This document shows, one piece after another, positions 7,170 through 9,879 of a stretch of DNA of 64,000 nt. The notes under the pieces were generated by a model that had not been told where the DNA came from, made no database searches, and saw nothing but the letters and a program-made list of their open reading frames with translations. The stretch lies in NCBI RefSeq assembly GCF_008087625.1, contig NZ_CP042997.1, forward strand, positions 1,736,001 through 1,800,000. The letters are read 5' to 3'. This DNA is from Aquisphaera giovannonii. Lineage in GTDB: Bacteria > Planctomycetota > Planctomycetia > Isosphaerales > Isosphaeraceae. Both the position numbers and the translations under genes were made by a program. The number at the start of each line of letters is the position of its first letter. Within the stretch, counting starts at the first letter, position 1.

Positions 7170-7385
7170 GGTCAATCGGGGCCATCCACCTTTCATGTCA
7201 TTCGAAGCTGGGGTCAATCGGCGCCATCCACCTTTCATGTCTTAGTCAATCGCGGGTCAATCGGGGCCATCCACTCTTCATGTCTTCGGGGGGTCAATCG
7301 GTTCCATCCACTTTTCATGTCTTCGGGGGGTCAATCGGGGCCATCCACTTTTGGGGTCAATCGGGGCCATCCACTTTTCATGTCT
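7170..7385. repeat. array of about six GGTCAATC-type direct repeats (right edge of low-GC island)
   Basis: About six copies of a roughly 30-bp unit lie head to tail with 5-15 nt spacers. The core is GGTCAATCGGGGCCATCCAC, followed in most copies by TTTTCATGTCTTCG. Copies begin near 7171, 7211, 7255, 7292, 7328 (truncated) and 7354. Some carry single changes (GCGCC or GTTCC for GGGCC; CCTTT or CTCTT for CTTTT). The unit carries GGGGTCA, the reverse complement of the TGACCCC in the left array, as expected of the two inverted ends of one element. No transposase lies between the arrays. From 7386 to 7560 no gene is seen. Confidence 0.78.
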
Positions 7386-7560: not shown

Positions 7561-9879
7561 ATGACGACCGAGGTCCGCATTCTGGCGTTCAGGCCTAGCG
7601 AATCGCTCCCGACGGGCCCGAACGCGAAGCGGAGGAAGGCCCGCTCGCGGCCGAAAGGGATCGTGCCGGGGGGAGGGCGCCGGGAGGCGGCGATCCCGAA
7701 GGCGGGCCGGGCGGGTCCGCGGGGGATCGAGGAGCGGGCGGCGGGGTTGCTCCGGGCGGCCAGCCCGGCCGCGAGCGAGGAGAGGGTGCTGCTGAGGAAG
7801 GCCGCCGAGCTGGCCCGGAAGATCGACGAGGCGGAGCGGGCCGAGGGGGCGTACCTCGAGCGGGCCGGCCGCATCGTGGAGGATCGGCGCAGGGCGGCGG
7901 AGGCGGGGGGACCCGGGCGGGTGCTGGAGTTGAGCCGGCGGCTGATGGCGTGGGAGGAGTCCGCCGACCGCGACCCGTCCGACGGGGCGGGGCGCATCCT
8001 GGGCGAGCTGGAGGGCTCGCGCGCGGGCCGGGCGTGGCTGATCCGGCTCTGGGGATGGATTCGCGAGTGGATCGGGCGGAAGGGCCGGTTCGGGGTGATG
8101 GACCGGTATCGGCTCGTGCGGGCGCTCGGCCACGACCCGATCGACGCGGCGAGGCTCCCGCGGGTCCGCGAGGTCTTCGCGGCGCTGAATGCCCTGGACC
8201 CGCGGGGCGGGCTCGATGGCGAGGTGTTCCTCGCCAGGGCGGGGGAACTCGCCGCGGGATGCCACCCGATCGTCGGCTGCTCGCCGGCCTGGCGCGAGGC
8301 GGCGGGGACGTTCGCATCGGCGGAGGAGGCCCGCGCGTTCCTGCTGAACCTGGTGGACGAGCGAGTCCGCCGGCTGGAGGCCCTCCGGGCCGCGTCGGCT
8401 CCCGAGCGGGCCGACCGCGAGGCCCTCGCGGTGATGGCGGCGGTGGAGGGCTTTCGTCGAGAGGCCGAGGCGACGGGGCGGAAGTTCCTCCGGGTCATGG
8501 AGGAGCTTCGCCGGGTGCGGACGGGTGCGTCGGCGGAGGCGGGGCGTCCCGTCGGAGCCGCCTCCGTGCGGCGACCGGGTGAGCCTCGGCCGGCGGTCGT
8601 CCCCGAGGCGGCCGGCCTCCGTGGCGAAGGATTCGGTGAAGCGGCGGAACGCGGTGGTACGGCGGCGGCCAAGGCGTTTGAGAACCGCGGTCATGGCATG
8701 CTCACGAAGGGACTTGCGGCGAGGTTTTCGAAGCGGCGTGCGCGACGAGTGGGGCCGCCCCCGGGCCGGGACGGAGGACATCGGCGTGGGGCCGAAGGTG
8801 ACGCCCCGGCCAGGCGGACCGGTGGGGACGATGGCGTGGGACTTGACGAGCCTGGCCCGAAAGCTCGCGAGTCCGTGCCGACGACCCTGAGTGTCGAAGG
8901 TCCGGGCCGTTCCTCTCCGGACGAGGCCGTCGAAGCGGCACCGACCCAAGGCCTGGCGCTGCGGCTTGACGGTCTGCCGAGGGGCCTGGGTGGCCGCGGT
9001 GGAGCCGCAGGCGACCCCGCGGGGGTGGGCCGTCGCGGCGATCCGGGCGCCGTCCGCACGCCGAGGCGATCCCGCGGGGTCGCCTGCGGCTCCACCGCGG
9101 CCACCCGGCTGCAAGGCCGTGCCGATCGACAAGCGCCGCCGAGGCTGATGCTTCTGTCTCGGGGTGATGCCGGCGAACCCGTTCGAAAACCGTGTTCAAG
9201 GGGTTCCATCGAAAGGATTTGCGGCGAGGCATTCGAAGCACGGCGCGGCGACGAGCGGAGCCATGCGACCGACGCGGCGAGGGCGTCGGGATGGCGTGGG
9301 TTGGCCGGGGCGAAGCGGCGCGAGGACGGGAGGGAAGTGAGGCCATCGTGCCGCCGGGGCGTCACGCGCCGGGACGATTCCCTGGGCATCCGATGTCGGC
9401 GTCCAGGAACGGAGGCTCGACGGCCGGCGGCAGGCTGCGAGATGGCGGAGACGACGGGAAAACCTTGCCCGGGCACGGGCCACAACTCGGCCCGTAAACC
9501 CAGATTCGGACATAATTTAAATACGATAGGGGTTTGCCCATCGAGGCGACGAGCAAACCCACCGAGTCTCGTTCGGGCTGTTGCGAGGGCCGGAGGCCCG
9601 CCCGCGGCATTCCGCCTCCGCGGGGGCGTTCGTCGGGCGTCATGCGACCGGCATGGGCCCTACCGGATGAGGGCCTGGAAGGAGACCTCGCCGGAGGCGC
9701 CCGGGGCGATGACGCCGGGGAGGGTCCACTTCAGCTCGGTCGAGCCGACGCGGTTCTCGGACGCCGAGAAGTCGGTGCCGCGCGGCCCCTTCGCGGTCCC
9801 CTTCACGTACTCGAGCCGGGGGAGCAGGCTGTCCACGATCTCGGCCGAGCGGATGGGGGTGTTGCCCATGTTGCGGTAG
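7561..9879 (+). CDS. hypothetical protein; only the first ~340 residues look coding
   Basis: Unrecognised. From ATG 7561 the first 340 or so codons have the strong G/C third-position bias of genes here and encode an Arg/Ala/Glu-rich, mostly alpha-helical protein (LLRKAAELARKIDEAERAEG; RAFLLNLVDERVRRLEALR) without signal peptide or membrane helix. After about 8550 the bias disappears and the frame runs, open by chance, through repetitive sequence and into the 3' end of the convergent gene at 9660. The natural stop has therefore probably been lost or sits in another frame. The given end is simply the first in-frame stop; the real protein may end near 8.6 kb through a frameshift. Confidence 0.4.
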   Translation: MTTEVRILAFRPSESLPTGPNAKRRKARSRPKGIVPGGGRREAAIPKAGRAGPRGIEERAAGLLRAASPAASEERVLLRKAAELARKIDEAERAEGAYLERAGRIVEDRRRAAEAGGPGRVLELSRRLMAWEESADRDPSDGAGRILGELEGSRAGRAWLIRLWGWIREWIGRKGRFGVMDRYRLVRALGHDPIDAARLPRVREVFAALNALDPRGGLDGEVFLARAGELAAGCHPIVGCSPAWREAAGTFASAEEARAFLLNLVDERVRRLEALRAASAPERADREALAVMAAVEGFRREAEATGRKFLRVMEELRRVRTGASAEAGRPVGAASVRRPGEPRPAVVPEAAGLRGEGFGEAAERGGTAAAKAFENRGHGMLTKGLAARFSKRRARRVGPPPGRDGGHRRGAEGDAPARRTGGDDGVGLDEPGPKARESVPTTLSVEGPGRSSPDEAVEAAPTQGLALRLDGLPRGLGGRGGAAGDPAGVGRRGDPGAVRTPRRSRGVACGSTAATRLQGRADRQAPPRLMLLSRGDAGEPVRKPCSRGSIERICGEAFEARRGDERSHATDAARASGWRGLAGAKRREDGREVRPSCRRGVTRRDDSLGIRCRRPGTEARRPAAGCEMAETTGKPCPGTGHNSARKPRFGHNLNTIGVCPSRRRANPPSLVRAVARAGGPPAAFRLRGGVRRASCDRHGPYRMRAWKETSPEAPGAMTPGRVHFSSVEPTRFSDAEKSVPRGPFAVPFTYSSRGSRLSTISAERMGVLPMLR
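8672..8760. repeat. diverged direct repeat, copy 1
   Basis: This stretch and 9176-9263 align along most of their length, sharing pieces such as TTGCGGCGAGG, TTCGAAGC and GACGAG in the same order. About 25 nt further on both copies also share GATGGCGTGGG. They flank the perfect inverted repeat at 8988-9106. They look like two ageing copies of a non-coding repeat family. Confidence 0.55.
8988..9106. repeat. perfect 36-bp inverted repeat with 47-bp spacer
   Basis: Arm 1 spans 8988-9023 and arm 2 spans 9071-9106; they are exact reverse complements over all 36 bases (arm 1 begins GGGTGGCCGCGGTGGAGCC). Transcribed either way this gives a very stable hairpin. There is no T-tract, so it is not a simple terminator. 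A REP/MITE-like repetitive element is the likeliest nature. Confidence 0.85.
9176..9263. repeat. diverged direct repeat, copy 2
   Basis: Second copy of the repeat described at 8672-8760, in the same orientation and about 500 bp downstream. No convincing gene is seen between 9264 and 9659 apart from the hairpin at 9530-9560. Confidence 0.55.
9530..9560 (-). terminator. hairpin downstream of the 9660-11504 gene
   Basis: An 8-bp stem (GGGTTTGC at 9530-9537 with GCAAACCC at 9553-9560) has a 15-nt loop. On the minus strand it is followed by an A/T-rich stretch (CGTATTTAAATTATG), rare in this genome. It lies 100 nt after the stop of the minus-strand gene ending at 9660, in the right place for an intrinsic terminator. 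Confidence 0.45.

Follow-up and report, generated by a model that had tools for sequence, protein, structure and literature searches.

What kind of element is the perfect palindrome at positions 8988–9106 of the window, the 64,000-nucleotide stretch of the Aquisphaera giovannonii genome analysed here? Its two arms, 8988–9023 and 9071–9106, are 36 nt each and 100% complementary across a 47-nt spacer, and among the 11 pairs listed when the full window was scanned for inverted repeats (seed 12, length ≥20, distance ≤200), no other is fully complementary. The initial annotation had described the arms as identical over 36 bases and too long to arise by chance, and both statements held: the identity is exact, the number of 36-bp perfect inverted repeats expected in the window from base composition is 1.15e-12, and in ten simulated sequences of equal length (first-order Markov) the longest perfect inverted repeats reach only 12–16 nt. 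Folded as single-stranded DNA, 8960–9130 gives −82.7 kcal/mol against −54.05 ± 3.43 in 200 shuffles (z −8.35). The same annotation placed the palindrome where coding bias has vanished, in agreement with the third-position GC of the upstream frame, which is 0.86–0.98 until about 8610 and 0.58–0.80 thereafter.

Copies of the palindrome are numerous. A 171-bp query (8960–9130) gave 71 BLAST matches in its own genome (10.5 Mb in three contigs, labelled C1, C3 etc.), all on C1, in either orientation and often clustered. Counted by eye, 63 of the 71 are confined to the query part 8981–9112, and eight extend outside it. A covariance model of the repeated unit, hereafter REP, found at least 150 units in the genome; its matches in the 64-kb window are both arms and a third, weak one (E 0.69). 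A copy count had been proposed earlier as one way to check the palindrome, a single copy without conservation in relatives being taken to argue for a local rearrangement. The palindrome is neither single nor unconserved, with many copies in its own genome and 51 REPs in a second Aquisphaera genome (G002), taken as Aquisphaera insulae JC669. It resolves into the following parts:

8988–9106, no strand assigned: the 119-bp REPIN, a pair of inverted REP units, recognised by its 36-bp arms, the REP-model matches and the genome-wide spacing.
8988–9029, plus strand: left REP, alpha subtype (47.6 bits with the REP model; alignment; pair counts).
8990–8993: foot GTGG of the left REP, followed by the stem, 8994–9001 with 9015–9022, which has one T–C mismatch.
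9065–9106, minus strand: right REP, alpha subtype (62.7 bits with the REP model; alignment).
9101–9104: foot GTGG of the right REP, read as CCAC on the plus strand.

Iterated profile searching of 56 loci from the own genome, together with the window, yielded 108 unique units of at most 42 bases, of which 67 (59 distinct) make up alignment A1; truncated, degenerate and some further units were omitted by eye. In the aligned units, the REP consists of GGGTGG followed by an 8-bp stem and loop. The GTGG foot directly precedes the stem, with the T and two adjoining G invariant or nearly so, and the family thereby carries the GT[AG]G foot at a hairpin that is expected of REP sequences. Two subtypes occur, alpha with a loop like GAGCCGAAGGCGA and beta with a loop like GGAAGCGCAGCGA. 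Stem positions pair in 97.2% of cells, and 55 cells are changed on both sides against 21.5 in shuffles; when the stem partner is slid by 1–3 columns, pairing falls to 28–62%. Stem pairs with two-sided change number three, not above the 2.9 in shuffles. Because unit selection and kinship favour such a result, the pair counts support the REP hairpin without being independent proof of it.

A stable, covarying hairpin might also act as RNA, and a structured regulatory RNA was one of the two options first suggested for the palindrome. The hairpin would then be transcribed and serve as a terminator, an mRNA stabiliser or a regulator of the upstream gene, a role that suits the very low folding energy, the covariation of the stem and the location past the end of the coding bias of the gene at 7561. 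The covariation, however, follows equally from recognition of a DNA hairpin, and the suggestion found no supporting result of its own. An Rfam search of 1301 bases produced no family at its gathering score, the sole match at E ≤ 1 being 9216–9283 (E 0.18, 22.3 bits where the gathering score is 40), and the single promoter type scanned for has no candidate site in 8500–9700. The palindrome has no terminator T-tract, as had been noted, and so does not have the hairpin plus T run of an intrinsic terminator; the single terminator-like site in 8500–9700 is 9543–9524 on the minus strand. We regard a structured RNA as an improbable account of the palindrome. REPs can be co-opted as RNA elements, and an RNA role is thus not exclusive of a REPIN.

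The REPs follow a recurrent layout. The matches listed form 90 REP islands, 50 of which hold a single listed REP, which tells against a doublet layout but is partly due to the listing ending at 150 matches; among the same matches, neighbouring REPs no more than 300 bp apart are in opposite orientation in 53 of 60 pairs, and 26 of 30 plus–minus neighbours measure 115–123 bp end to end. Two inverted REPs of one family at a fairly fixed spacing are what characterises a REPIN. Most doublets combine the two subtypes: the 39 in plus–minus order comprise 28 alpha–beta, two alpha–alpha and three beta–beta doublets and six with an unclassified member, and 28 of the 33 that are fully typed are mixed, compared with about 16 expected by hand arithmetic from subtype numbers of 56 and 43. 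The window REPIN is unusual in that both its arms belong to the same subtype while most doublets are mixed; it and its sister at C1:10228726 are the two alpha–alpha doublets. Its long perfect arms arise because both REPs share one subtype, and in a beta–beta doublet (L018) identity runs over 35 bases.

The flanks of REP islands look non-coding. Using codon-position GC in stop-free frames of the 150-bp flanks, without gene calling, we found coding-like sequence on both sides of none of 45 islands, as opposed to 55–68% of background position pairs in the window. The left flank of the window REPIN scores 0.204, marginally above the loosest coding-like threshold of 0.2; by composition, its surroundings look non-coding. 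With this distribution and its copy number, the family is abundant and chiefly intergenic, as REP sequences are.

The genome also encodes what is probably, to judge from sequence and a structure model, the REP-associated tyrosine transposase (RAYT) partner of this REP family. The gene, C1:135853–136428, is an intact open reading frame of 191 aa with the motifs PEHMH and YVHANP. It is flanked by REPs at 135743–135784 and 136523–136564, the nearest of them 94 nt upstream and 68 nt downstream of its ends, and thus lies, as a RAYT gene should, among REPs of a dispersed family; 23-bp tandem duplications follow downstream. A second copy, C1:4890594–4891156, is frameshifted and also has REPs on both sides. 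A Pfam Y1_Tnp search of the genome returned six genes, which were rejected as partners, none being within 20 kb of REPs among the matches listed; a degenerate REP lies 777 nt from the stop of one Y1_Tnp gene (C1:8352836–8353528), and by eye separate REP-like repeats accompany two of the six genes, one of these confirmed. The partner is absent from the six Pfam genes and was found only by a protein search with its homologue from G002, the contig C236 protein, which matched C1:135859–136422 at 70% identity.

The RAYT has no Pfam match at E ≤ 0.001. It scores 80.4 bits with the NCBIfam model REP_Tyr_transpos (NF047646), a margin of 0.4 over the cut-off of 80; at E ≤ 0.001 this model detects all 12 aligned RAYT homologues, and Pfam Y1_Tnp six of the 12. 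A sequence search with P0001 found no solved structure at E ≤ 0.001. An AlphaFold2 model of the protein (mean pLDDT 86.6) has as its best Foldseek match 4ER8, a RAYT bound to a REP hairpin (E 1.2e-8, TM 0.62/0.71, 20% identity), with an rmsd of 7.4 as the weak point of the match; IS200/IS605-type transposases rank after it. Taken together, PEHMH, YVHANP, NF047646 and 4ER8 indicate a Y1 HUH fold with an HUH motif and a single tyrosine. The nature of this enzyme bears on another explanation, that the palindrome is a classical MITE, in which terminal inverted repeats of a DDE transposon are moved in trans. Short length, many copies and inverted ends would all fit. Yet each arm is itself a footed hairpin, REP units are also found alone and in arrays of alternating orientation, and the transposase linked to them is of the Y1 HUH type; a MITE is accordingly a very remote prospect.

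The palindrome is thus, very probably, a REPIN of a GTGG-footed REP family, moved as proposed by the RAYT at C1:135853–136428, and the two constitute a new REPIN/RAYT family, probably of the genus Aquisphaera. This reading draws directly on the number of copies, the covarying hairpin, the arrangement in doublets, the surroundings that look non-coding, the RAYT linkage and the intact HUH and tyrosine motifs. The other option first suggested, a mobile palindromic element, stood as regards the kind of element, given the many copies, fixed layout, relatives in a second species and matching transposase gene; its movement is proposed here from related systems. In single-stranded DNA, for instance on the lagging strand, a hairpin would form from each REP. 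The RAYT, a single-domain HUH tyrosine transposase, would recognise the hairpin together with the foot, and its tyrosine would nick beside the foot. The REP pair could then be excised or copied as one unit and rejoined elsewhere in non-coding DNA. Binding, cutting and REPIN movement are modelled on the RAYT systems as presented in PMC3116915 and PMC6006769, while single-strand cleavage, action in trans and a preference for the lagging strand would follow from published work on IS200/IS605 elements and RAYTs. By this analogy, the RAYT has probably scattered the repeat through the non-coding DNA of the genome.

The window copy itself raises a further question. Matches to longer queries extend into its flanks, and the REPIN therefore sits within a somewhat larger repeat, in a region with several others:

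8931–9289, plus strand: larger dispersed repeat carrying the window REPIN, 81% identical to C1:10228669–10229025.
9170–9290, plus strand: dispersed repeat B1, adjoining the REPIN unit and present elsewhere in the genome without the window's REPIN.
About 8660–8770: second, diverged copy of B1.
8545–8595, plus strand: unit of a different REP-like family, with 45 of 51 bases identical to units flanking a Y1 transposase gene.

Near-full matches to 8960–9130 are found at C1:10228698–10228867 (90%) and C1:7907763–7907930 (82%), and 8961–9161 is 80% identical to C1:7907763–7907963. Both flanks of the window REPIN are common to two other copies (C1:10228669–10229025 and, in part, C1:7907763–7907963), and one flank is common to five (C1:578850, 1447162, 1934649, 5707797 and 5936427). 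Because other copies share its flanks, duplication together with the flanks is a live option for the window copy, which, from these alignments, may have spread by ordinary duplication instead of RAYT action. Extended to the palindrome as such, this would make it a passenger, either of an intergenic repeat about 360 bp long or of a series of repeats following a multi-copy gene, duplicated by recombination, its arms kept identical by conversion and the RAYT having no present part. The shared flanks in these two plus five copies favour such an account, as does the finding of gene paralogues near repeats of the same kinds, and the 36 identical bases suggest recent homogenisation. Against it, all but eight of the 71 matches keep within 8981–9112, so that most end near the REPIN ends, and the doublet spacing, alternating orientation and tight RAYT linkage are unexpected under plain duplication. 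We therefore find it rather unlikely; moreover, it can hold for the window copy alone with the family still a REPIN family.

Searches for an empty site bear on the same question. With the joined flanks of 39 REPINs as queries, 183 matches crossed the junction, many of them inside REP arrays, and none of the 183 was established as an empty site. The joined-flank matches of the window copy and its sister lead to L075, the sole locus that joins both window flanks. It was rejected as an empty site for the window REPIN, since the left REP persists there in its first 20 bp, and it looks like a deletion remnant.

The neighbourhood of the REPIN contains further repeated sequence. A gene of a multi-copy family extends from 7561 to about 8540, and DNA similarity among the compared gene copies ends near 8524–8546, with REP or B1 repeats beyond in several. 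At E ≤ 0.001, the residues encoded by 7561–9480 had 20 matches in the own genome, which include the window itself and some to the repeat region, 23 in G002 and 11 in G029. The full-length open frame, 7561–9879, has no Pfam match at E ≤ 0.001; long open frames over such repeats in 71% GC DNA, as here, are probably not genes over their full length. Upstream of the multi-copy gene, 7170–7378 is occupied by tandem arrays whose units measure about 26, 37 and 80 bp (GGTCAATCGGGGCCATCCAC...). B1 is about 100–130 bp long, contains TTCGAAAACCG in several copies and occurs at about a dozen other places in the genome, some with two copies. Two loci in opposite orientation, L192 (C1:8477500–8483500) and L193 (C1:6538500–6544500), carry the same set of gene copy, REPIN and B1, and 132 bp beside their REPINs are 94% identical. 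Relatives of the unit at 8545–8595 flank the Y1 transposase gene C1:5139410–5139925 (L057). At L056 (C1:506000–516000), a Y1 transposase gene, C1:511123–511692, lies between GTAG-headed hairpins with GTAGGGTGCGTC and its complement, by eye; these hairpins are perhaps a third REP family of this genome.

Across 45 genomes of the bacterial family, under stricter filters that may lose weak matches, the REP family numbers at least 144 in its own genome, 51 in G002, two in G029 and one each in G026 and G066, and none in the other 40, including G001 of the same genus. The REP family is narrow in range, since 43 other genomes hold 0–2 each. The exact degenerate alpha pattern had no match in a genome-contig collection from which the own or very near genomes are possibly left out. 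The G002 RAYT gene at C236:36463–37035 (L153/L144) has one in-frame TGA and is the weakest of ten Y1_Tnp matches. A beta-like REP heads every one of its six flanking units, three of which lie inverted on the upstream side and three direct on the downstream side; the six REP units are closely similar, with an 83–85-bp period, despite the in-frame TGA. In G002, inverted copies of hairpins headed by GGGTGG lie beside the RAYT homologues at both C236 and C251.

RAYT genes elsewhere show comparable flanks. At RAYT loci of the family, the 5′ and 3′ flanks share a repeat in 14 of 15 cases. Among the best 80 of 552 confirmed candidate relatives, 73 had usable flanks: an inverted repeat is common to both flanks at 60 of the 73 loci, against 3, 4 and 5 with shuffled partners, and a direct repeat at 43 of 73, against 0, 3 and 3. 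For the same best 80, GTG[GC]C[ACT] on either strand occurs in 54 of the 60 shared flank segments, where 20.8 are expected for segments of matching length drawn at random from these flanks, in a regular-expression count of a loose motif. Automatic hairpin detection gave a foot at 21 of the 60 loci: 11 GTGG, eight GTGC and two GTGT. In genome G015, the REP head of its RAYT, GGGTGCCACGGGTTC, is present in 58 copies, and 36 of them form 18 plus–minus pairs, by eye, spaced 87–89 bp apart, and the backward control pattern is absent; elsewhere the head has 14 copies in G010, is rare in G066 (two copies) and does not occur in G009, G000 or G002. These loci may belong to a planctomycete-wide RAYT clade whose REPs have a GTG[GC]C foot, including GTGC, which lies outside the GT[AG]G rule, and a hairpin that varies by genus. 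The REPINs described here are mostly of mixed subtype, as if left and right ends were needed as in IS200/IS605. The looseness of the motif, the 21 loci given a foot by hairpin detection and the scarcity of the G015 head in G066 and G009 speak against the proposal. On it as a whole we are close to evenly divided, leaning slightly towards doubt; what could prove to be new in it is the GTGC foot, along with the mixed doublets.

The REPINs of Pseudomonas fluorescens SBW25, as portrayed in PMC3116915, are also inverted REP pairs with a spacer, compensatory changes, extragenic location and tandem clusters, and there a REP cluster lies beside each of three RAYT genes. The present family differs from them in sequence and in that most of its doublets (28 of 39) combine two REP subtypes. 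Subtypes of one family in inverted pairs are likewise reported for the Escherichia coli REPs Y, Z1 and Z2 with TnpA-REP, which have a GT[AG]G tetranucleotide foot at the hairpin and a RAYT gene between REPs (account in PMC6006769); unlike in E. coli, the foot here is GTGG and the RAYT is diverged, at 20% identity to 4ER8 in the structural alignment. GTAG-tagged palindromic repeats occur in many phyla, Planctomycetes included, and are similarly footed stem-loops, most of their stems being 6–9 bp; GTGG is the foot of most O. terrae GTAG-20 elements, and the main-text description of GTAG-repeat families does not name the window's REP family (PMC3733652). Class 3 TnpAY1, mainly from Planctomycetes, Acidobacteria and Proteobacteria, resembles the present system in its Y1 HUH protein and hairpins beside the gene; its foot CnGA and motif Y----Q, compared by eye with the class as characterised in PMC6006769, differ from GTGG and YVHANP, and membership in that class was rejected. 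The papers listed from the open-licence literature on Planctomycetes, Isosphaeraceae and Aquisphaera yielded no description of this REP/RAYT family, and the one found on Isosphaeraceae uses "palindromic" in the CRISPR sense. The finding adds to the Isosphaeraceae a REPIN/RAYT family in which enzyme and repeats occur in one genome. It also yields matched RAYT–REP pairs across many planctomycetes, through which the way in which a RAYT reads foot and hairpin can be compared from pair to pair.
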